Assembly (NCBI GenBank): GCA_029881255.1
Contig: JAOUMY010000002.1
Location: 372,001 to 436,000 of the forward strand
Origin: Gammaproteobacteria bacterium
GTDB lineage: Bacteria > Pseudomonadota > Gammaproteobacteria > S012-40
Direction: 5' to 3'
DNA length: 64,000 nt
The notes below the pieces were generated by a model, which did not search any database, had not been told where the DNA came from, and worked only from the letters and a program-made list of their open reading frames with translations. The translations under genes were made by a program, and so were the position numbers. Below are positions 12,137 through 24,682 of this stretch, piece after piece (the stretch's first letter is position 1; every line of letters starts with the position of its first letter).

Positions 12137-15100
12137 CTACTTTCCAATTCTGACTACTCGCGCCTCTCCAACTGTTTGCGATTGCTGCTTAAGTGAACCG
12201 ATGCAGCGCCTGGTTTCATCTATGTCATACTTCATCAATGATGCGTAGATATTTTCCACACCGCTGACCCACTGGCTGCTGGCGACACGCTTTAATAAGG
12301 CATCCACGCAGGTTTGCGCCATTCCAATATCGCTATCCAATAGGCCGTGAATTTCATCCAGTGTCCTGTTAAGTTGATCGCCGTCTATACTTTCTGATTT
12401 TTCCCGAGATTCCGGTTTCTTTTCCTGGCTAATCGCATCGATCGCAGCAATAACCTCTTTCAGCGCGGCTTTCAAATTGTCCATTTCGCTATAAACCGCT
12501 TCGCTGTTTTTTCTGCGACAGGACTGTTCGACGCTCGCCGACACTTGATGCAAGCGATGCGCGCCGATATTGCCACCACTACCTTTCAAACTATGGGCAA
12601 CTCTAGCGGCGTCTTCCCATGCACCGTTTTCCACTAATTGCATGAGTTTCTCATCGCTACGCGCTTGCTTCTCTTTGAAGCCTTTAACAATGCGCAGATA
12701 GGCCTCGTAATTCCCCCGCAGACGACTAACACCGTCTTCAATATCTAAACCCTCTACAACAGGTAACGATGTTACTTCTTGGCTTTGTGATACTTCTTGC
12801 GTCTTGGATGTGTTAGTCACGGGCTTCACGTATTTTGAAATCTCCTGTATGACGACCTCTGGTCTGATGGGCTTGGTCACATGTGCATTCATACCCGCCT
12901 CCAAACTCCTCTCCGCATCGCCTGAAAGGGCATTTGCAGTCATCGCTAAAATCGGCAGATCTGTATATTCACCACCCAAAGAACGTATCTGTCTGGCTGC
13001 CTCAAGCCCATCCATGACTGGCATCTGTATATCCATGAGAACAATCGCATACTTCTTTCTTTGTACCTGTTCGAGTGCCTCTTTTCCGTTATCGCAAATG
13101 TCTATATCAAACCCATAGGTGAGTAATAATTCATTAGCCACCTCTTGATTGACGGTATTATCATCAACAAGTAACAAGGGGACTGAGCTGAAATCGGGAT
13201 CATCCTGGTTCTTTTCGCTATGCGGGCTGTTTATACTCGCTTGCGCATTACCATACGATCCGGTAATCACATTTAGCAAATCCATATGGCGAATTGGCTT
13301 GGTCAGCCATTCATATTTGTCTGAAGCCTCATTCATCAAATGCGGATATGTCAGGATCACTAGTTTGGTATTTCGGTTTCTTTGATCGTCTTCAATTTCT
13401 TTTGCCAACAGAACACCATTGATTTTCGGCATCAATAAATCGATAAAAATCAGATCAAACGGCGTACCGGCTTTATGCTGTTTATCGATCAAGGAAAGTG
13501 CAATATCCCCGTCCTCTGCATCCATTACGCTCCTGATTCCCCTGGCCTCAAGCAAGGACATCAACACTTTCCGATAAGTCTGATTGTCATCTATTATCAA
13601 TATGCGCCGACTTCTTATTTCCTCTGACAGTATATTTGCGTCTTCTCCGCCGGTAATCACTTCCATCGGAATTTCAAAACTAAAATCTGACCCTGTCCCA
13701 GGAGCGCTTACGACTTTTAACTCTCCACTCATGGCCTCGACAAGGCGTTTACATATCACCAGGCCGAGTCCTGTACCGCCATATTTTCGGGTATGAGAAC
13801 TGTCCGCCTGATTAAAGGCCTGAAACAGTTTTTTCTGTTGCTCTGGTGGAATCCCAATTCCGGTATCTTGCACGCCAAACCACATGTGCCCGTTGAGCAT
13901 ATAGACATAAACCGCGACATGACCATCTTCGGTAAACTTAATCGCATTATTCATCAAATTGGTAATGACTTGTCTCAGACGGGTCGGATCACCACTCACC
14001 AACTGCGGCACTTTCGGATCGATAGAGCAAATTAGCTCCATACCCTTTTCATGCGCTGCTTTTGCTAGCAGAGCCGCCGTTTCCTCGACAACAGTGACAG
14101 GAGAAAAGGGAATAAATTCAAACTCCAGTTTTCCAGCCTCAAGCTTGGAAAAGTCCAGGATGTCGTTTATAACGGTTAACAACATTTCACTAGAGCCTTG
14201 CGCTGTATCGAGATAACGTTGTTGCTTGTCGCTAAGCTCTGTGCGTTCCAGTAGCTGCAACATGCCCAGAATTCCATTCATGGGCGTGCGTATTTCGTGA
14301 CTCATCGTCGCGAGAAACTGGCTTTTCGCTACTGTCGCCTGCTCCGCTTCCTCTTTGGCTGAGATCAGCGCCTTATTCAGTCGTTCCTGCTCGGTCTGAC
14401 GCCTGGCAGCGTAAATCAATTCTGCGCACGTTCTTAATATCGGACCGACATTTTCTGCGACACTCTGATCGAACCCACTATCGCGATTGGCGAGACCTAT
14501 GACACCGAGTATTTCCTCTCCCCTGAGCAAAGGAACCCCAAGAAAATTTTTTATCTCTAAATGTGAGTCCGGAAGTATGAATTTTCTTTCGTCTCCGGCT
14601 ACGTCATGGCAAATAACGTATTCCTTAGTCTCCAGTATCTCGCCAAACATCATGTCCAAATTATGTATTTCTTTTCCCACGACCCTGGTAAGATCAAAGG
14701 CATTGCGTTCTTCCTCTGATTCTCCCTGGCCGACTACCGCGTACAACTTCATGTATGGCTTTTGCGATGAGTCAAAAAGCACCTCGCCGATGAAACCGTA
14801 ACGACTACCGGTAAGATTAACCATATCGGGTAACAGCCCATTGAATACTGCAGTGGGATTACCGCTACTGATAAACCATGACTGTGCCCGGTTAATCGCT
14901 TCGATTTGTTGTTCCTGTACCGAAATTCGCTCTTCTTTATTTAGTGGACGCAAGGATTCTTTTGAAAAATATTTTGATTCTGATCTACTTCTATCAGCCA
15001 ATTCTTTTGTGGCATGAGTCCTATCCTGCCAAACCACTCCTGCATAAAATACCAGTGCAAGTGAAATACTGAACCCATAAAACAACATACTAACCGACTT

Positions 15101-15508
15101 CGCATCAGTAGTGACTTTTTCTTCGCCGCTACTAACGACAAGTAAGCGACCTGCGAGTTTGTTGTCAAGAACCAGGAGTTCCTCCAGGGCATATTGATAG
15201 ATTTCCAGTTTTCTATTCGGCACGCCATCCACGGCATAGAGAATACTATCGCTACTGTCATAAACGACGATTTTTCGCCAATGGTTGTGATGCGCCAACT
15301 GTCTATCCAACAACTTTTTCAATTCCACATGATCTTCCATCCTGGTCGCGAGAATCGAAGCAAGAGTCGTAAGGATCGACTTTTCTCCGTTCACAAAGTC
15401 ATTCTCAATTGAATTGACGTAGGATGGGATAAGGTAAAATTTCGATAGTAAAACGCATACCATGAAAATGGTCATGAGAGATAACGCCAATTTATACCGT
15501 TCTTTCAT
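12137..15508 (-). CDS. Hybrid sensor histidine kinase with GAF, two receivers and HPt (BarA-like architecture)
   Basis: This 1123-residue inner-membrane kinase has transmembrane helices at about 7-29 and 142-163 flanking a periplasmic segment. A cytoplasmic GAF domain follows (about 205-370), then HisKA with His ~404 in [11 protein letters not shown] and HATPase ([10 protein letters not shown]). A first receiver (about 640-755, IDLLMP), a second receiver (about 785-905, LMDIQMP) and a C-terminal HPt domain with [10 protein letters not shown] complete it. All elements of an internal phosphorelay are present and catalytic residues look intact. The first gene of a two-gene unit, it probably signals to the downstream receiver protein. 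The stimulus is unknown. Confidence 0.92.
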
Positions 15509-15990
15509 ACGTTTTTACTTTGATTATCGGACACAGACATCGGTGATGTTGAAAAATAGTTCACTTGCAAGCTGGCGCAATGTCTAAGTTCTATTCAATA
15601 AGATCTAAACATTCAGAGTAGCCGACTAAACCAGATTTTATTTGTCGAAAATATCTCAATATCCGACTCACTACGCGATAACACACGTCACCAAAACAAT
15701 ATTGCTATCGGTAAATATCAAGACGATGCTAACCAGCTACAATCTTTTTTTACATTTTCCGAATGCATCATTCGTCGACTATTCAACATCGCATAACTGG
15801 ATATGGAGTTATTTTACTGTGGCATATACATGAATGGGAAACTCGTGACAAACTAATACCCGGTGACATCAATGTCTGTCACCATGCACTAGTAACATCA
15901 CTTATTTCATGAAGAATGGAAACCACTATAATTTAAATGAATGGATCGCCCGTTGTTATAGATATATTTCTACAGGCGACGTAAATACCT
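15509..15990. other. Intergenic region, no gene recognised
   Basis: These 482 AT-rich bases lie between the hybrid-kinase start and the end of the CheY-like gene, so the kinase promoter must be here. I see no convincing coding frame, repeat or RNA. Confidence 0.5.
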
Positions 15991-16401
15991 CTAAACCGCA
16001 ATTTTTTTATTCATTCGTTCAAGCACGTTGACGATCTTTTGTTCGAGAACAGCGGCTTGTATTGGCTTGCACACATACTCATCTACGCGATACTGTTGCG
16101 CCAATTTAATAAAACCCTGACCACTATTTGACGTCAACATTATAAAGTGTATTGAATACGAGTCTGCGCTACGCCTCGCCACTTTTAGAACGTCTATACC
16201 GCACAGCTGTGGCATATCCCAGTCGCATATTACCAAATCGATTGGCGACTGTTTTATCTTTGCCAGTGCTTCAACACCATTCTTAGCCTCTACTATCTGG
16301 GTAATCCCGATAGAATTCAGAATGGCCGTTACAATACTTCTCATGGTCTTCATATCATCAGCCACGAGTACTGTCAGATGTTCATAGCGGGACGTATTCA
16401 T
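15991..16401 (-). CDS. CheY-like single-domain response regulator
   Basis: This 136-residue stand-alone receiver domain has the acidic pair in VADDMKTMRS, the phospho-acceptor Asp in VICDWDMP (about residue 60), the conserved Thr/Ser switch in MLTSNS and Lys in VCKPIQ. The DWDMP motif and length resemble CheY and related relay proteins. No flagellar or che genes are adjacent; the nearest signalling genes are the hybrid kinase unit downstream and a chemoreceptor about 19 kb away. It may be a phosphate shuttle for the nearby kinase. Confidence 0.88.
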   Translation of the reverse strand: MNTSRYEHLTVLVADDMKTMRSIVTAILNSIGITQIVEAKNGVEALAKIKQSPIDLVICDWDMPQLCGIDVLKVARRSADSYSIHFIMLTSNSGQGFIKLAQQYRVDEYVCKPIQAAVLEQKIVNVLERMNKKIAV

Positions 16402-16774: not shown

Positions 16775-17269
16775 ATGTCTATCAAAGTATTGAATAGAAA
16801 ATTACTCATCTCCCTGATGCTGTTTGCAGCGGCAGGACCACTCTATGCGGCTGCACCTTGCAACAACTCAAACCGCAAGGTAGTTACACTGCAGGATATT
16901 TCTTTTGGCATCGCGGGTTCATTTGCGGTCGGCGGAACAGTTGATGTCTCGCCGACCGGATTTCGCGCCGCGACAGGTGATGTTGTGCTGTTAGGTGGAA
17001 CGTGGAGCGCGGCAATATTTCAAATACAAGGTTGCGCCAATGATCTAGTGACGATTAGTCTGCCTGTCGCGGCTCAGGCATTACGCGCCGGGGGCGGCGG
17101 AAAAATCGATGTCATGAACTTCGTTACCCAACCTACCCATACGACCCCTTATATTCTCGATGCAACTGGCGCCATGCAGTTTAGAGCCGGCGCATCGCTT
17201 ATTCTGAGGCCATTTCACCCTGCCGGTGTATATACCGGACAAGTTGCCATCGACATCTTGTACAACTAA
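16775..17269 (+). CDS. DUF4402-type secreted surface subunit (minor pilin-like)
   Basis: This 164-residue protein has a signal peptide (hydrophobic about 10-24, cleavage near LYAAAP). The mature beta-rich DUF4402 domain contains TLQDISFG, GDVVLLGG, a disulfide-capable Cys pair, and closes with HPAGVYTGQVAIDILYN. The last strand (YTG...V.Y) is typical of fimbrial subunits assembled by donor-strand exchange. It is paralogous to the next gene and is probably a minor or adaptor subunit of the chaperone-usher-like locus. DUF4402 has no experimentally fixed function that I know of. Confidence 0.78.
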   Translation: MSIKVLNRKLLISLMLFAAAGPLYAAAPCNNSNRKVVTLQDISFGIAGSFAVGGTVDVSPTGFRAATGDVVLLGGTWSAAIFQIQGCANDLVTISLPVAAQALRAGGGGKIDVMNFVTQPTHTTPYILDATGAMQFRAGASLILRPFHPAGVYTGQVAIDILYN

Positions 17270-17580
17270 TACAACCGCTAGTAAGTTATTTGAACACAAT
17301 TATCTACTTCCGGTTTTAGAATTATTCTTTCTTCCTTATTCTTTTGAACTAATTCACACATTTATTCTTTTATTTTTTTCGAACTCCATCACTGTTTCTA
17401 TGTAACGCATTGTAAAAAAGGGTATCGCGGACGTTACATTGTGTACTTGTTACAGGGAAAGTGTACGACACAAATTCTTGTAATTTTTGGAAGTAAGCGA
17501 AGGGAGTTGCTGAACGTGGTCAATCCGTGACCCTGCCGAAAAAGTGTAAATGGCAGGTCCTTTTTAAGGGGTGTTTAGTT
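17270..17580. promoter_or_regulatory. Leader of the second DUF4402 gene with a terminator-like hairpin
   Basis: This AT-rich region contains an 8-bp inverted repeat ATGTAACG/CGTTACAT (17400-17407 and 17432-17439). It also has a stem GACC(C)TGCC / GGCAGGTC (17529-17537 and 17552-17559) followed by C and five Ts, directly before the AAGGGG ribosome site. The second structure looks like an intrinsic terminator or stabilising hairpin in the 5' leader of the presumed major subunit. Confidence 0.5.
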
Positions 17581-18084
17581 ATGAAATTAGGCAAACTAGC
17601 AATTGCAGTTGGTTTAGCGGTTACCGCTACAATGTCATCTAGCGTAATGGCTGCAACAGCGACTTCAAACGCAACAGCGAATATCGTTACTCCGATCGCC
17701 ATTACCAATACAGCGGCCTTGGACTTCGGTTCGTTCTCTCACGGTGGCGCTGCTGGTACAGTAGTTGTTGACACCGCTGGTGTGCGTACCTTTACAGGTG
17801 CCATCACTTTGATGGGTGTCACTTCAGCTGCTGCGGCTTTCGACGTAGCCGGTACACCAAGCTCACTGTTCTCCATTACCTTGCCTGCCAGTACCATACT
17901 GAGCAATGGTGTGGATAACATCACGATAGATACATTCTTGAGTAATCCGGCCGTTGCAGTAGGCGGTGCGCTCGACGCGACTGGTGCTGCGGTAGTTAAT
18001 GTCGGTGCGACGCTGAATATCGTTGGTACAGAGTCTACTGGCGCATATACAGGTTCATTCGACGTGACTGTTGATTATCAATAA
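17581..18084 (+). CDS. DUF4402-type major surface subunit (pilin-like)
   Basis: This 167-residue secreted protein has a signal peptide of about 23 residues (ending SVMAATA) and a mature DUF4402 beta domain very rich in Ala, Thr, Gly and Val. Its signatures are ITNTAALDFGSF, TGAITLMG, FSITLPAS and the final TGAYTGSFDVTVDYQ. The composition and the following strong terminator suggest an abundant structural subunit. The ATG at 17581 is chosen over an upstream in-frame ATG because AAGGGG precedes it and the signal peptide then starts correctly. It is followed by the chaperone and usher-like genes, which supports a fimbrial or surface-layer role. Confidence 0.82.
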   Translation: MKLGKLAIAVGLAVTATMSSSVMAATATSNATANIVTPIAITNTAALDFGSFSHGGAAGTVVVDTAGVRTFTGAITLMGVTSAAAAFDVAGTPSSLFSITLPASTILSNGVDNITIDTFLSNPAVAVGGALDATGAAVVNVGATLNIVGTESTGAYTGSFDVTVDYQ

Positions 18085-18105
18085 ACAAAAGAATATTTCT
18101 TAACT

Positions 18106-18137
18106 AAAGGCGGGTATCTTTACCCGCCTTTTTCTTT
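18106..18137 (+). terminator. Rho-independent terminator after the DUF4402 subunit gene
   Basis: AAAGGCGGGTA (18106-18116) pairs perfectly with TACCCGCCTTT (18121-18131) around a TCTT loop, followed by TTCTTT. It would insulate the abundant subunit transcript from the chaperone and usher-like genes, or reduce their expression by partial read-through. Confidence 0.92.
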
Positions 18138-18260
18138 ACAGGATCTGCACACTTTCTACCCTAAGTGTCTTAAAGGATTAAACCTCTTCTACCGATAACA
18201 CACTAGTCAGGTTTAACTCCCCGTATAGCAAGCGGAATTCTAAGTCTATTGAGGTTGATG

Positions 18261-19148
18261 ATGTTTGCAAAAAAGCACTCCTTTAGATCGCTGTTCTACC
18301 ACCAGGTATATGTACTACTTCTATTAATCACGTTTCTCGCATTGGGGAGCGGCCAGGCATTCGCCCAACTTTTGGTCGCGCCTACCCGAGTGGTTTTCGA
18401 GGGAAATGAGCGATCGGCTGCAGTCAATCTGGTGAATACCGGCAATGAAGCCGCATCTTACCGTATTCGCTTTGAGCGCAAACGTATGTTATCCGGTGGT
18501 GGTATGGAGGCAGTCGAAAAACCTGTTGACGGAGAATTGTTCTCGGACAATTTTGTCCGCTTTGCACCGCGCCAGGTTACCCTCCAACCTGGACAATCTC
18601 AGACGGTGCGACTGATGTTGCGACGCCGTCCTAATATGGAAGATGGCGAGTATCGTTCCCATTTGTTGTTTCAAACCATCCCGAACAAAGATGTATCCGG
18701 TGGAATCGAAGCCTTCAAACGCGATAGTGGCAACGAATTGAGTATTAGTCTCACTCCAGTATTTGGCGTATCGATACCAGTTATCGTAAGACAAGGCCGC
18801 ACCAGCGCCGAGGTCGGTCTAACTGAACTCAAAGTGTTAACACCCGACGACAAACAACAGCCTCCAACCTTATCCATGCGTATGGAACGTAAGGGTAATG
18901 CGTCGGCATTTGGAGATATTGCCGTGTACTACCGCAAACCTGGGGCGAAAGAGAAAGACAAAGGCATCGTCGTAGGGAGAGTAAACAATGTCGCCGTCTA
19001 TACTCCCAATGCCTTTCGCAGCGTTGAGTTTCCATTAAACCAGGCACCTGACGTTAAATTGAAAAAAGGTGAGTTACATGCGGTCTTCAGGGAAAAAGAG
19101 GATCAGGGTGGAAAAGTACTCGCAGAAGCCCGACTCGGCTTACCTTAA
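18261..19148 (+). CDS. PapD-like periplasmic fimbrial chaperone
   Basis: This protein of about 295 residues has a signal peptide (hydrophobic stretch ending GQAFAQ). Domain 1 shows the chaperone pattern LLVAPTRVVFEGNERSA, then FAPRQVTLQPGQSQTVRLMLRR (the G1 donor strand and its positively charged anchor). Domain 2 is a second Ig-like fold. Such chaperones cap subunits in the periplasm and deliver them to an outer-membrane usher. GAGG precedes the ATG pair at 18258/18261; the second has the better spacing. The gene is longer than the classical ~240 residues and overlaps the usher-like gene, so the two act together. Confidence 0.85.
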   Translation: MFAKKHSFRSLFYHQVYVLLLLITFLALGSGQAFAQLLVAPTRVVFEGNERSAAVNLVNTGNEAASYRIRFERKRMLSGGGMEAVEKPVDGELFSDNFVRFAPRQVTLQPGQSQTVRLMLRRRPNMEDGEYRSHLLFQTIPNKDVSGGIEAFKRDSGNELSISLTPVFGVSIPVIVRQGRTSAEVGLTELKVLTPDDKQQPPTLSMRMERKGNASAFGDIAVYYRKPGAKEKDKGIVVGRVNNVAVYTPNAFRSVEFPLNQAPDVKLKKGELHAVFREKEDQGGKVLAEARLGLP

Positions 19149-21780
19149 ATCGGCACGACTACTCTTATTACTCCTCTGCATGCTGGCATTGAGTCCGCAG
19201 CTTTACGCTGCGGAATTAATGCCTACGAAAGCGCCTTGGATCACACCAAACGACGACGACCTGCGTCTGGTTGAAGTGCGCTTTAAACAATACATACTCG
19301 CCAAAACAATCATTATTTACGAAAGCACGGGGGGCGCGCTATTACCGATAAGAGAGATAAGCGCGATACTGGATATTGCATTAGAAGTTGATATCGTCCA
19401 CGGCACCGTGCAGGGCTTTGTATTTGATGAGTCGCGCACCTTCTTTCTAGATGTCAAGAGAAGCCAGGTAACTCTCTCAGGTATAGAGCAGCCATACAAC
19501 AGAAATCGTGTCGGCTACTACGAAGACGATATTTACGTTGACAGCAAACTTTTAGGACAGTGGCTCGATATCGTCTTTGACGTAGATTTCTTTGCTGGAA
19601 TGCTATTTGTTCGAACCAGCCAGATTCTCCCTTTCGAAGCCAAGATGGAAAGGGAAGCGAATATAAAAAAAATGAAATCGAGATACCGGAAAAGAGAGTT
19701 CGACTACAACGTCTCCCCCCCAGTCTTTAGAGCGTTCGGAATACCCAGTATTGACCAGACGTTGAGACTGAGCCTTACACGGAATCACTCGCAAGCGTTC
19801 AACAAGCTCGCCTACTATACCGGTTACTTATCATCTGAAATTTATGGTATGCAAGGCACGGTCTATGTTGACGCCAACAACACCGAAGGTATGGGGGACA
19901 TGCGCTGGCAACTGCGCCGGGTACATCCGGACAATATTTTGCTAGGCGGACTGCGTGCAAACGAGTTTCGTTACGGGATGGTGAGCACTATTAGCCTACC
20001 TATGATCATGTCGCCAGGCAATTACGCTCATGGCTTCTACGTCAGCAACTTTCCCAACGACCGACAACTGGAATTCGACAGACAGACTTTTTCCGGTGAT
20101 TTGCTTCCTGGCTGGGAAGTCGAACTTTATCAGAACAATACCCTGGTCGGCTATCAGGAAGCGCGTTCTGATGGTCTTTACGAATTCAATGACATTCCAC
20201 TTTTATTTGGCAACAATTTTTTCAAATTGAAATTTTACGGCCCACAGGGACAAGTTAGAGAAGAAAACAAACAATATTATCTCAGCAATTTACTCACGCG
20301 ACCGGGTCAACGCTATTACCGCACCATGTATAGTTATGATTCGGCGCTAGACCTGCACCGAGTTGGCTGGAATTATGAGATAGGCATGAACAAGCAGGTA
20401 TCAACTGTATTCAGGGCAGCGTATCTGCCGGTTAACGATAAAGAGTTAGGTTTCTTCTCTACCGGCGTACGCGCCTTTGCCGGACCATTCTATTTTCAGG
20501 CCGATGCAAGCATCAATTCCGAAAAAGGCATTGCGGGTGAAATGGGACTTCAAACACGCTGGCGCGACATAACTCTTAGCTATCGTCACGGTGAGTTCAA
20601 AGATTACCAAAGTGACACCAATATCATTTACGCCGATCCCATTCTACGCACTGACCAGGCTAGCCTGAGTCTTGCTATCCCGGCGACGCCATGGACGTAT
20701 CGCATGCCACTCCTGTTTGAAGGTCAACTCTCTCAACATGCATCCGGGTATTATCGCTACGAACTGCGCAACAAAATCTCTTCCGTTATCGCCGGGGCCT
20801 ATATTTCACATGATGCAAAACTGACTGCTACCCGTGATGGCATCAGCGAACAATCTGCCCACGTTCTGATGAGTAAACGGATTGGTATTTTCAACTTCAG
20901 GACAGAAACAAACTACGAATTGACCGACAAGATACACCCGCGTGATATCTCCGCAGGACTTGACGGCAGCATAATTGGTCGGATTCGTTACATGCTCAAC
21001 GTCAAGAAAGAATCGCTTAGCGATAACTATTTGTACTCCGCCGGACTCAACGGCATTTTTCAAAAGACTTCCCTGCGACTGGACATGGGATACTCAACAA
21101 ACGATACCATTAGCGTTAATTTCTCTATGGGGACGGGAGCGGCATTTGATCCACGCACTCGCGGCTGGAAACGCGATGCTTCGCCTGTTGCAGATACCGG
21201 CATGTTATCCTTGCGCGTGTTTCTGGACAAAAATAGAAACGGCACTTTTGACGAAGAAGATGATCCTATTAGTGGCGTCGGATTTCACATTAATGGGTAT
21301 CCCAAATTTGAATTTACTGACGAAAATGGCATAGCCTTTCTTACGCGACTTCCGGTAAGTGAATATGTCTCGATAGGCGTACGTGAGGAGACTATCGCTG
21401 ATCCACTTTGGATACCTGAGATACCGGGTATCAAAACCGTGATCAATCCTGGTCGAGTGGCAATATATGATTTTCCGGTCAAGATGACCGGAGAAATAGA
21501 CGGCGTCACATTTATCAGTCGTGGCGGTGTTACTAAGGAGATCGGTGAAGTCATGCTGGAGCTGGTTGACAATACCGGCACCGTGATCCAACAAACCACT
21601 AGCGCATACGACGGATTTTATGTGTTTACACGCGTCCCCATGGGACAATACACAATACGTGTTGCTGAAGATCAAATTCAACGACTGAATTTGATTCCTG
21701 CGACTGAAGTGCCTGTCGAAATTACTACCGATGAAATATTTAAGAATGCGGTGGACTTTACCCTGAGGTTCAGAGGTTAG
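19078..21780 (+). CDS. Divergent usher-like outer-membrane protein with C-terminal SdrD-B/carboxypeptidase-regulatory-like region
   Basis: This protein of about 900 residues has a long basic leader (about 28 residues) before the signal hydrophobic core LLLLLLCMLAL. Residues about 45-190 resemble two copies of a small globular domain (VRFKQYIL..., then YEDDIYVD). The middle third has usher-core features: SGDLLPGWEVELYQNNTLVGY with GLYEFNDIPL (plug-like) and many alternating aromatic strands of a beta-barrel. The last ~200 residues contain VFLDKNRNGTFDEEDDPISGV and a second Ig-like region ending VPMGQYTIRV, as in SdrD-B domains. ATG 19078 is preferred because AAGGTGAG precedes it; it overlaps the chaperone gene by 71 nt. 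Not a standard FimD/PapC. Confidence 0.72.
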   Translation: MRSSGKKRIRVEKYSQKPDSAYLKSARLLLLLLCMLALSPQLYAAELMPTKAPWITPNDDDLRLVEVRFKQYILAKTIIIYESTGGALLPIREISAILDIALEVDIVHGTVQGFVFDESRTFFLDVKRSQVTLSGIEQPYNRNRVGYYEDDIYVDSKLLGQWLDIVFDVDFFAGMLFVRTSQILPFEAKMEREANIKKMKSRYRKREFDYNVSPPVFRAFGIPSIDQTLRLSLTRNHSQAFNKLAYYTGYLSSEIYGMQGTVYVDANNTEGMGDMRWQLRRVHPDNILLGGLRANEFRYGMVSTISLPMIMSPGNYAHGFYVSNFPNDRQLEFDRQTFSGDLLPGWEVELYQNNTLVGYQEARSDGLYEFNDIPLLFGNNFFKLKFYGPQGQVREENKQYYLSNLLTRPGQRYYRTMYSYDSALDLHRVGWNYEIGMNKQVSTVFRAAYLPVNDKELGFFSTGVRAFAGPFYFQADASINSEKGIAGEMGLQTRWRDITLSYRHGEFKDYQSDTNIIYADPILRTDQASLSLAIPATPWTYRMPLLFEGQLSQHASGYYRYELRNKISSVIAGAYISHDAKLTATRDGISEQSAHVLMSKRIGIFNFRTETNYELTDKIHPRDISAGLDGSIIGRIRYMLNVKKESLSDNYLYSAGLNGIFQKTSLRLDMGYSTNDTISVNFSMGTGAAFDPRTRGWKRDASPVADTGMLSLRVFLDKNRNGTFDEEDDPISGVGFHINGYPKFEFTDENGIAFLTRLPVSEYVSIGVREETIADPLWIPEIPGIKTVINPGRVAIYDFPVKMTGEIDGVTFISRGGVTKEIGEVMLELVDNTGTVIQQTTSAYDGFYVFTRVPMGQYTIRVAEDQIQRLNLIPATEVPVEITTDEIFKNAVDFTLRFRG

Positions 21781-21803: not shown

Positions 21804-21833
21804 AAAAAATACCGGCTGTGCGTACAGCCGGTA
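21804..21833 (-). terminator. Rho-independent terminator of the copper operon
   Basis: TACCGGCTGT (21810-21819) pairs with ACAGCCGGTA (21824-21833) around GCGT. On the minus strand the stem is followed by six Ts (the A-run at 21804-21809), so it ends the minus-strand copAB transcript. Confidence 0.92.
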
Positions 21834-21858
21834 TATTGAAAACAATAGGCATCGAAGT

Positions 21859-22545
21859 TTAAAACCAGGTGCGTACGCCCACGAGCATTTGCAAATCGCG
21901 ACGACTGTGTCCATGTGCGACGGCATGGTCCGCGGTGCCACCAAACAGCAACGAAGCATTCACTCCGATATACGGCGCAAATTCCCGCAATAGCTCATAG
22001 CGCAGCCGCAGTCCTAGATTGGCATCTGACAAACCGCCACCGGTCTCCCCGCCTGATTTACTATAGACGTTTGCTTCCAGCTCAGGAACCAGTGCCATAC
22101 GTCGAGTCAACATAATCTCATACTCGGTATCTACGCGTAGATTGACGCGTGCATCGGTATCGACGAACAAACTGATATCCGATTCAAACATCAATGGCGC
22201 AACGCCGTATAAGGATACTGCAAACCAATCCTTTGCTACAGGTTCAAAGTCTCCACGCCAGCCGATCTGGATATCCCAGAACGCTGAAATTGCGCGGCTA
22301 TACAAAAATTGTATCTCAGCCTCTTCTACTGTTGACTCGGCGTATTCCAATTCACCCTTGATCCATAGCTTGTTGTAATCCTTACCCAGCCACAGATCAC
22401 CGTCCATTAACAATGGAAAGCCATCGGAAGCTTTGCGCGCCTCCAGCTTGTCCAGTGTCAATTTGTACAAAAATGGATCGGCGCCACCCATACCCATGGC
22501 GGAGGAACTCACTGCGATTAACACCAATGCAAATAGTTTTTTCAT
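21859..22545 (-). CDS. copB: CopB-like outer-membrane copper resistance protein
   Basis: This 228-residue protein has a signal peptide (about 1-18) and the CopB beta-barrel (about 25-228). Its motifs include DPFLYKLTLDKLE, DGDLWLGKDYNKLWIKGE, ISAFWDIQIGWR, LVPELEANVYSKSG and a terminal aromatic residue (TWF) typical of outer-membrane barrels. The Met/His-rich N-terminal extension of many CopB proteins is absent. ATG 22545 is chosen because GGGGGCGAG precedes it; an upstream frame to 22623 overlaps copA and lacks a signal peptide. It starts 11 bases after the copA stop. Expected role: copper sequestration or passage at the outer membrane. Confidence 0.92.
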   Translation of the reverse strand: MKKLFALVLIAVSSSAMGMGGADPFLYKLTLDKLEARKASDGFPLLMDGDLWLGKDYNKLWIKGELEYAESTVEEAEIQFLYSRAISAFWDIQIGWRGDFEPVAKDWFAVSLYGVAPLMFESDISLFVDTDARVNLRVDTEYEIMLTRRMALVPELEANVYSKSGGETGGGLSDANLGLRLRYELLREFAPYIGVNASLLFGGTADHAVAHGHSRRDLQMLVGVRTWF

Positions 22546-22556
22546 GACTCGCCCCC

Positions 22557-24599
22557 TTAGCTCACTACCACGGTACGGAACATACCCGCCATGTGATAAA
22601 TCAAATGACAGTGAAATGCCCACGCCCCTTCTGCGTCTGCAGTTACGCGATAGCTAATCCGTGATCCCGGCTGAACGATGATAGTGTGCTTGCGCGGCAG
22701 GTAATTATTGTCGCCGGTTTCGAGATCACTCCACATACCGTGCAAGTGCATGGGATGGTTCATCATGGTGTCATTGACATAGGTAAAACGGACTCGTTCA
22801 CCAAGGCGCAGGCGAATTGGTTCTGCGTCTGCACTATCGACCCCGTTAATTGACCACATATAGCGACCCATATTCCCGGTGAGATGCAACTCGATCTCTC
22901 TCTCTGGCTCTGCGTCCCTGTGTGTCGGGTTGATATTACGTAGATCTGCGTAGGTTAAAACACGACGACCATTATTGCGCAAACCGATGCCTGGATCATC
23001 GAGACGATATTGTGGATTATCTGCACGCATGTCCACGTGTGGACCATACTCGGTCTTGGCGTGTTTGACAGGCTTATTGCTAAAGTCAGACGGCGATGAG
23101 CCGATATCGCCCGGCATTTTATCGTGACTACTGTGATCCATGCCGTGCTTGGCATGGGTGACGTTCTGCACGAACTTTTCTATTTTGTTCATGCCATGTT
23201 CCGAACGACCCAAGCCATGTGCCATAGCATCACCCATATCGTGTCCCGCATGTTCATCGTGTGATGAGGAATGGGAGTCATGGTTCATGTTATTTCCCAT
23301 ATCACTCATATTGTGCTGAGAGTGATCCATTTCGGCGGGAGCGTCGTGCTGCATAGTGTGACCACTGTGATCCATATTATGGCTACTATGGTCCATTTGT
23401 TGTTCACCGTGATTCATATTGTGATCACCGTGCGACATACCACTATGCCCACCGTGGCTCATGCCCATATCGGCGTGAGTCAGATCAGCGATCTTATCCA
23501 TCGCCGGCACTTCTGCGCGCATATTCATGTCAGGCGTCAGCGTTCCACGCGCATAACCTGAGCGATCGATAGACTGTGCGAAAATGGTATAGGCCTTATT
23601 GTCTTGCGGCTCTACGATAACGTCATACGTCTCCGCTACACCGATGCGAAATTCATCGACAGGCACAGGCTGCACGTTTTGTCCATCGGCGGCAACCACT
23701 GTCATTTTCATGCCAGGGATACGCACATCGAAAAACGTCATCGCCGATCCATTAATAAAACGCAGGCGTATCTTCTCACCTTTGTTAAACATGCCCACCC
23801 AACCATCTGCTGGCGTTACACCGTTCATCAGATACGTATAGGTATATCCAGTTACGTCGGCCAGGTCGCGCTGACTCATACGCATATTGCCCCACATCAG
23901 ACTATTGCTGATGGCGCTGCCCAAACCTTGCTTACTGACATCGCGAAAGAAATCACCGACAGTGCGTTCCTGAAAATTATAGTAGTGGCTCATTTTTTTG
24001 AGCTTGGCATAGACTGCGGTGGGATCTTCATCGGTCCAGTCCGACAGCATCACGACATATTCTCTATCGTATTTAAATGGCTCAGGCTCACGCGGATCAA
24101 TAATAATCGGCCCGTATAAACCGGTCTGTTCCTGGAAACCCGAGTGGCTGTGATACCAATAGGTGCCAGACTGTTTTACTGGAAACTGATAGGTAAAGGT
24201 TTCGCCCGGTGCAATACCATTGAAGTTTGTTGATATTCTGGGCACACCATCCATAGAGGCCGGTAGTATCAAACCATGCCAATGAATCGAAGTCGTTTCA
24301 CGCAAGGTATTGGTCACCTTGAGCGTTACAGTCTCCCCTTCCTTCCAACGCAACAAGGGCGCTGGTAGTGAACCGTTTACCGTCGTCGCAACACCAGGAG
24401 AGCCAGTGAAATTAACCGCCTGTTCACCAATCGTGAGATCAAACGTCGTCCCTTTGAGGACAGGCATCATATGGTGTTGATGACGCATTTCCGCCAACAG
24501 GCGATAAGGCGTCATCCCCAGCGCCAGACCCGCGCCACCCAAAGCGAGACCCTGCACAAAACGTCGGCGTGATGAATCAATCGAGAAATTATTCTTCAT
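22557..24599 (-). CDS. copA: CopA-type multicopper oxidase, Tat-exported, with a large Met/His-rich insert
   Basis: This protein of about 680 residues starts with a Tat signal (SSRRRFVQGL followed by a hydrophobic Gly/Ala/Leu core). Copper sites are visible: IHWHGLILP and YWYHSHSGFQEQ in the first cupredoxin domain, HPMHLHG and HCHLIYHMAGMF near the C terminus (T1 and trinuclear ligands). Between domains, about residues 375-495, lies a long stretch dominated by Met, His, Asp, Ser and Gly, probably for binding or storing copper. The enzyme oxidises cuprous ion in the periplasm. ATG 24599 places the twin arginine about 11 residues from the start. It is followed by copB and preceded by a CopL-like gene. 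Confidence 0.94.
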   Translation of the reverse strand: MKNNFSIDSSRRRFVQGLALGGAGLALGMTPYRLLAEMRHQHHMMPVLKGTTFDLTIGEQAVNFTGSPGVATTVNGSLPAPLLRWKEGETVTLKVTNTLRETTSIHWHGLILPASMDGVPRISTNFNGIAPGETFTYQFPVKQSGTYWYHSHSGFQEQTGLYGPIIIDPREPEPFKYDREYVVMLSDWTDEDPTAVYAKLKKMSHYYNFQERTVGDFFRDVSKQGLGSAISNSLMWGNMRMSQRDLADVTGYTYTYLMNGVTPADGWVGMFNKGEKIRLRFINGSAMTFFDVRIPGMKMTVVAADGQNVQPVPVDEFRIGVAETYDVIVEPQDNKAYTIFAQSIDRSGYARGTLTPDMNMRAEVPAMDKIADLTHADMGMSHGGHSGMSHGDHNMNHGEQQMDHSSHNMDHSGHTMQHDAPAEMDHSQHNMSDMGNNMNHDSHSSSHDEHAGHDMGDAMAHGLGRSEHGMNKIEKFVQNVTHAKHGMDHSSHDKMPGDIGSSPSDFSNKPVKHAKTEYGPHVDMRADNPQYRLDDPGIGLRNNGRRVLTYADLRNINPTHRDAEPEREIELHLTGNMGRYMWSINGVDSADAEPIRLRLGERVRFTYVNDTMMNHPMHLHGMWSDLETGDNNYLPRKHTIIVQPGSRISYRVTADAEGAWAFHCHLIYHMAGMFRTVVVS

Positions 24600-24682
24600 A
24601 AGTCGTTCGTCCAAAATAATTGATAGAACACCCGTCATAGAACGGTTCTTTGACAGATGATAAGGCTAACTACAGATCTGGA

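Follow-up and report, generated by a model that had tools for sequence, protein, structure and literature searches.

The four genes at positions 16775–21780 of the window (the whole stretch of 64,000 nucleotides analysed here) very probably form an operon for a chaperone-usher pilus whose lineage is divergent and separate. Chaperone-usher pili are among the main adhesins of Gram-negative bacteria, and the parts of this system are a separate, widespread branch that is missed by standard searches. As a sequence-only reading of this DNA had noted, the genes lie together on one strand and encode two DUF4402 subunits, both recognised by PF14352, a PapD-type chaperone and an outer-membrane protein of ~900 residues (Table 1). 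Our interpretation draws on computed features, namely the usher fold, the pilin fold, the chaperone signature, the extension pattern, the gene order and the separate clade.

The second DUF4402 gene likely starts at ATG 17581, the listed GTG at 17527 being probably too early. Translation of the chaperone starts at 18249 or, likely, at ATG 18258, and the usher gene, starting at GTG 19069 or ATG 19078, overlaps the chaperone gene. Hairpins comparable to the terminator-like one within the locus were found at the same spot in 6 of 65 loci versus 0 of 336 control stretches; this suggests a possible attenuator, which would allow for more subunit than machinery. An Rfam search of the window returned no match, and a sigma-70 promoter scan gave scores no better than those of shuffled sequence. 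Copper-resistance genes, for CopB and a multicopper oxidase rich in His and Met (21859–24638, minus strand), are convergent with the operon, and a hairpin at 21809–21834 lies between the two. Directly upstream of the operon and divergent from it are genes (12137–16401, minus strand) for a CheY-like receiver protein and for a hybrid sensor kinase that contains GAF, Hpt and two receiver domains; a regulatory link is possible.

Table 1. Features of the DUF4402 pilus locus, in window coordinates.
Feature	Position	Strand	Basis
DUF4402 subunit 1 (predicted tip)	16775..17269	+	PF14352 E 9e-19
DUF4402 subunit 2 (predicted rod)	17581..18084	+	PF14352 E 2e-28
Predicted donor strand of subunit 2 (N-terminal extension)	17653..17694	+	alternating small hydrophobic residues; heuristic signal cleavage site
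Terminator-like hairpin, 11 bp, T-rich tail	18106..18131	+	between rod-subunit and chaperone genes
PapD-like periplasmic chaperone	18249..19148	+	PF00345 E 6e-8
Divergent usher	19069..21780	+	predicted structure and profile comparison
Usher N-terminal domain, enlarged	19246..19626	+	two beta-beta-alpha-beta modules (DSSP of model)
Usher transmembrane barrel	19747..21150	+	~24 strands, plug after sixth (model strand list)
Plug domain (GWEVELYQNN...GLYEFNDIPLLFGNNFFKLKFYGPQGQ)	20080..20238	+	profile alignment to PF00577-usher plug
C-terminal domain 1 (usher CTD1 equivalent)	21163..21441	+	structural and profile alignment
C-terminal domain 2 (usher CTD2 equivalent; Pfam: SdrD_B)	21451..21771	+	structural and profile alignment

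An usher beyond the reach of sequence models

Sequence searches did not reveal an usher. Pfam matched the outer-membrane protein only near its C terminus, to SdrD_B (E 2.5e-11) and related prealbumin-like stretches, and its usher families gave no match even at E≤1; neither did NCBIfam match the protein, nor did usher models match any of 52 relatives at E≤0.01. In the PDB, a sequence search with the protein alone found nothing, and the usher profiles retrieved SdrD-type matches at the C terminus, the rest being chance. PF00577 detects another usher in the same genome, ~125 kb away and with its own PapD, indicating that its miss here is not a search failure. The second chaperone-usher locus of this genome (L182, contig C2:262000–266800, outside the window) is archaic-like: PF00577 matches a frame of 789 residues there, which is accompanied by a PapD-type chaperone.

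Judged by its predicted structure, the outer-membrane protein is an usher. The AlphaFold2 model, built from 52 sequences (pLDDT 90.0, pTM 0.74), shows the features that define ushers: a barrel, an internal plug and two C-terminal domains. The best 18 PDB matches in Foldseek are all FimD or PapC (E down to 1.4e-26) and span the barrel, the plug and both C-terminal domains, and VIA aligns residues 167–852 of the model to FimD 132–833 with Z 20.8 over 543 residues, compared to Z 15.4 for the best non-usher barrel. FimD and PapC have a 24-strand barrel with a plug, and the strand order of the model is six strands, a small beta domain, and then about eighteen strands. The plug is the most conserved stretch among the 52 relatives. 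At an identity of about 11–13% to FimD and PapC, profile comparison by hhalign relates the family to PF00577-type ushers (P 98.8%, E 6e-17; reversed profile P 9.6%, shuffled controls 0–0.1%, and no shuffled profile of any set above 0.2%) and to TcfC-type ushers (P 97%). The sequence-only reading had called the protein usher-like because of its plug and barrel, and structure prediction of the protein alone, a check it proposed, returned a barrel with plug.

That reading had also contrasted the Ig-like C terminus with the two periplasmic domains of standard ushers, a distinction that does not hold. The structural alignment reaches FimD 833, and profile comparison pairs the C-terminal 200 residues with the CTD1–CTD2 region of PF00577-type ushers (E 5e-7 and P 92%, versus P 0.2% for the reversed control). 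Thus, the “SdrD-B-like Ig repeats” correspond to CTD1 and CTD2 in other sequence dress, and the stretch is no added fusion but sits where these two domains belong. Elsewhere in the genome, positions 784090–784419 of contig C1, within a 7244-residue open frame that likely encodes a giant surface protein, match the usher profile in its SdrD_B-like part. SPOR domains are fused to or encoded beside the usher in a Pseudoalteromonas locus (L184) and in 5 of the 52 alignment members, which suggests a connection with peptidoglycan or with the site of division.

The N terminus is as unfamiliar as had been proposed, in that the first ~150 residues of the usher have no firm match. Its N-terminal domain (mature residues 12–138) comprises two modules, the second of which is similar to the N-terminal domain, short as a whole, of archaic-like ushers (P 81%, E 1.3e-5), the remainder being unmatched; full-length (global) alignment to archaic ushers is weak (P 3–15%). 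In the relative L072, the same region matches Cu_amine_oxidN1 weakly and below the cut-off (E 0.0016), and the TcfC domain PF16967 was sought in the divergent usher and its relatives and not found. Ordinary usher domains in the homologues had been named as an argument against a novel system: the barrel, plug and C terminus are indeed ordinary, but the N-terminal domain matches known ushers in its second module only. An usher with an unusual domain is also known from the P-usher, which, as Ruer et al. 2008 is cited in PMC4793230, is an usher fused to a further domain, whereas here there is no fusion and the difference lies within the N-terminal domain itself.

Position relative to the known chaperone-usher groups

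Chaperone-usher pili have been described as three groups and six clades (PMC9452303). The chaperone of the locus, correctly recognised as PapD-like in the sequence-only reading, carries two residues that are invariant in 41 of 41 relatives: P107, which aligns with the superfamily proline, and R136, the carboxylate-anchor arginine, which aligns with Arg89 of EcpB and has no counterpart in FimC. An arginine equivalent to CsuC/EcpB Arg89 is specific to archaic and alternative chaperones (PMC4654587), and by R136 the protein belongs to these non-classical chaperones. Pfam did not recognise the second domain of the chaperone, and a PDB search with the chaperone profile retrieved FimC only (E 0.09).

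This arginine would also be expected if the locus belonged to one of the known groups (archaic, alternative) and had evolved too fast for sequence models to detect it, and the usher profile likewise scores highest against archaic-like ushers (121; alternative ushers reach 88, and a classical set of three sequences 36). We nevertheless consider this explanation unlikely. In a tree of 40 sequences, all 18 members of the divergent family are split from the 22 other ushers with 100/100 support and by the longest inner branch, so that the divergent usher falls into neither the archaic nor the alternative clade; classical and alternative ushers form clades at about 100 and archaic-like ones at 83/89. 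The tree, for which no exact root position is claimed, comes from a small sample and an automatic alignment with cross-group identities of 10–15% and long branches or unusual composition in several rows. Moreover, archaic-like and alternative ushers score 204 against each other, above the score of either with the divergent family.

Similarities to all three groups are evident. In the archaic (sigma) pili, such as Csu of Acinetobacter, the chaperone is likewise PapD-like and has the non-classical arginine, the pilins are incomplete Ig folds that carry an N-terminal extension, and the usher has a barrel, a plug and two C-terminal domains; CsuA/B is one of the folds closest to DUF4402. Here, in contrast, the subunits are DUF4402 proteins, and the usher, which PF00577 does not recognise, forms a separate clade and is enlarged in its N-terminal domain. 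The alternative (alpha) pili (E. coli common pilus, CFA/I type) resemble the system in the chaperone arginine, in the usher profile and in the presence of CfaB and CooA among the pilin matches of DUF4402, and differ from it in the TcfC domain of their ushers and in clade. Classical pili provide the best structural matches of the usher, FimD and PapC, whereas the N-terminal domain is unaligned, identity is low and the chaperone arginine is missing in FimC.

On present evidence from sequence comparison, the usher family stands outside the three recognised groups. It apparently represents a distinct, deep and undescribed lineage of the chaperone-usher pathway; a full-text search of the literature, with subscription journals and preprints outside its coverage, found no mention of DUF4402 or of an SdrD B-like usher. 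On balance, we favor a fourth major lineage beside the classical, alternative and archaic ones, present in Proteobacteria and, by contig labels, in some other phyla; it would be characterized by DUF4402 pilins and by a differently folded, enlarged N-terminal domain with its own way of recruiting chaperone-subunit complexes. The earlier suggestion of a distinct class of surface-fibre assembly is therefore upheld with regard to the separate clade but not with regard to assembly, as the overall architecture is ordinary and nothing points to a different mechanism.

DUF4402 proteins as predicted pilins

Both subunits have a signal peptide. Subunit 2 continues with an N-terminal extension, ATATSNATANIVTP, and an incomplete Ig-like pilin domain, whereas subunit 1 has no donor-strand extension, two cysteines in its mature part and the C-terminal motif G(-14)...Y(-2). 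In the AlphaFold2 model of subunit 2 (pLDDT 90.3, pTM 0.76) the extension has no strand partner, as expected of a donor strand. Chaperone-usher pilins dominate the Foldseek list of this model, with weak single E-values (best 0.04), and 49 of the 50 best rows in VIA are chaperone-usher pilins or adhesin pilin domains (Z 6.0 to 7.8), with classical, alternative and archaic systems all represented. No sequence relatives of DUF4402 were found in the PDB; the best matches, plant-virus coat proteins at E 0.09, were judged to be chance.

The C-terminal motif of chaperone-usher pilins, a Tyr/Phe as next-to-last residue and a Gly 14 from the end, is present in 108 of 158 DUF4402 proteins. In 47 DUF4402 proteins with a long extension, the hydrophobic fractions at successive positions (0.81, 0.26, 0.55, 0.09, 0.64, 0.15, 0.70, 0.13, 0.77, 0.19, 0.94) alternate with a value of 2.74, about ten standard deviations from the shuffle mean of 0.00 (sd 0.26), and the alternation is absent from 26 short-extension proteins. 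An extension-bearing subunit is paired with a short or two-domain one in 52 of the 62 loci that have at least two DUF4402 proteins, the classes being based on a heuristic signal-peptide call and the related loci not being independent. The features that define pilins, i.e., an incomplete Ig fold, a donor extension and the C-terminal motif, are thus all present in predicted form, and DUF4402 is predicted from these models to be a chaperone-usher pilin.

From these features we infer donor-strand exchange, rod and tip roles, a surface fibre and adhesion, all by an ordinary chaperone-usher mechanism. Sec would carry the subunits into the periplasm, where the PapD-like chaperone would lend a strand to the incomplete Ig fold of DUF4402 and grip its C-terminal carboxylate. 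The N-terminal domain of the usher would recruit the chaperone-subunit complexes, whereupon the plug would move aside. The chaperone strand would be replaced, at the C-terminal domains of the usher, by the extension of the subunit 2 that follows. Subunit 1, lacking an extension, would come to lie at the tip, with subunit 2 as the rod that is extruded via the 24-strand barrel. The fibre likely functions in adhesion or biofilm formation.

Assembly would proceed in the same way if the product were a polymer like that of Caf1, capsule-like or short and without a distinct tip. Caf1 is indeed among the pilin matches, and the window encodes two subunits only and no two-domain adhesin. In most loci, however, a subunit with an extension stands beside one without, in agreement with a rod and a tip, and some relatives carry an additional two-domain DUF4402, making a tipless polymer improbable. 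These two-domain proteins (332–364 residues, in L103, L085, L095, L045 and L046) have a DUF4402-like N-terminal half and, from their sequences, look like tip adhesins. Because they occur in some relatives only, it is the missing extension by itself that assigns subunit 1 to the tip of the proposed pilus.

Gene order, distribution and implications

A scan of genome contigs with the single usher sequence found no relatives, and a four-sequence alignment gave 262 related stretches, of which 80 were kept. All were retrieved through the usher protein alone, so that the neighbouring genes are an independent test of gene order, a search that the sequence-only reading had called for. The order is kept in 58 of the 65 loci with at least 2.5 kb of upstream sequence, with the chaperone directly upstream of the usher and at least one DUF4402 gene before it, and 55 of the 65 have at least two DUF4402 genes upstream. 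In a minority (L092, L097, L109, L113 and L116) the chaperone and subunits lie elsewhere or on the other strand. L109, L113 and L116, on contigs labelled Desulfobacterales/Desulfobacteraceae, have usher frames of 1318–1349 residues, behind or opposite which the genes for the chaperone and DUF4402 are located.

In RefSeq, usher relatives are named “carboxypeptidase regulatory-like domain-containing protein” and stand beside a “DUF4402 domain-containing protein”; the Polaromonas locus is also annotated with a “fimbria/pilus periplasmic chaperone”. Although carboxypeptidase-regulatory and SdrD_B domains are present in many unrelated surface proteins, and RefSeq names the usher relatives after the former, a barrel that shares the usher fold and has another job, e.g., export of a non-fibrous adhesin, is very improbable given a plug and C-terminal domains that match ushers and conserved chaperone and pilin-fold neighbours.

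The divergent usher is present in 13 of 398 sampled genomes of the same phylum, and DUF4402 in 10 of the 13 genomes with the usher versus 4 of the 385 without it (Fisher p 1e-14). Relatives are mostly from Massilia, Polaromonas, Halomonas, Marinobacter and uncultured Gammaproteobacteria, and a few are on contigs labelled Desulfobacterales, Chlorobiaceae, Myxococcaceae and others. The locus is also present on plasmids of Polaromonas, Novosphingobium, Sphingopyxis and Pseudoalteromonas; on the conjugative plasmid 2 of Polaromonas sp. JS666 (L183), the pilus locus is flanked by two IS6 family transposase genes. Phage records searched for the locus gave no match.

Surveys based on PF00577 undercount chaperone-usher systems, since this branch is hidden behind the names “carboxypeptidase regulatory-like” and “DUF4402”. 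DUF4402, so far a “domain of unknown function”, gains a likely function as a pilin, and, with donor-strand subunits paired with ones that lack the strand, the rod and the tip can be predicted directly and put to the test. The divergent lineage thereby offers a case for studying the evolution of ushers, donor strands and recruitment domains.
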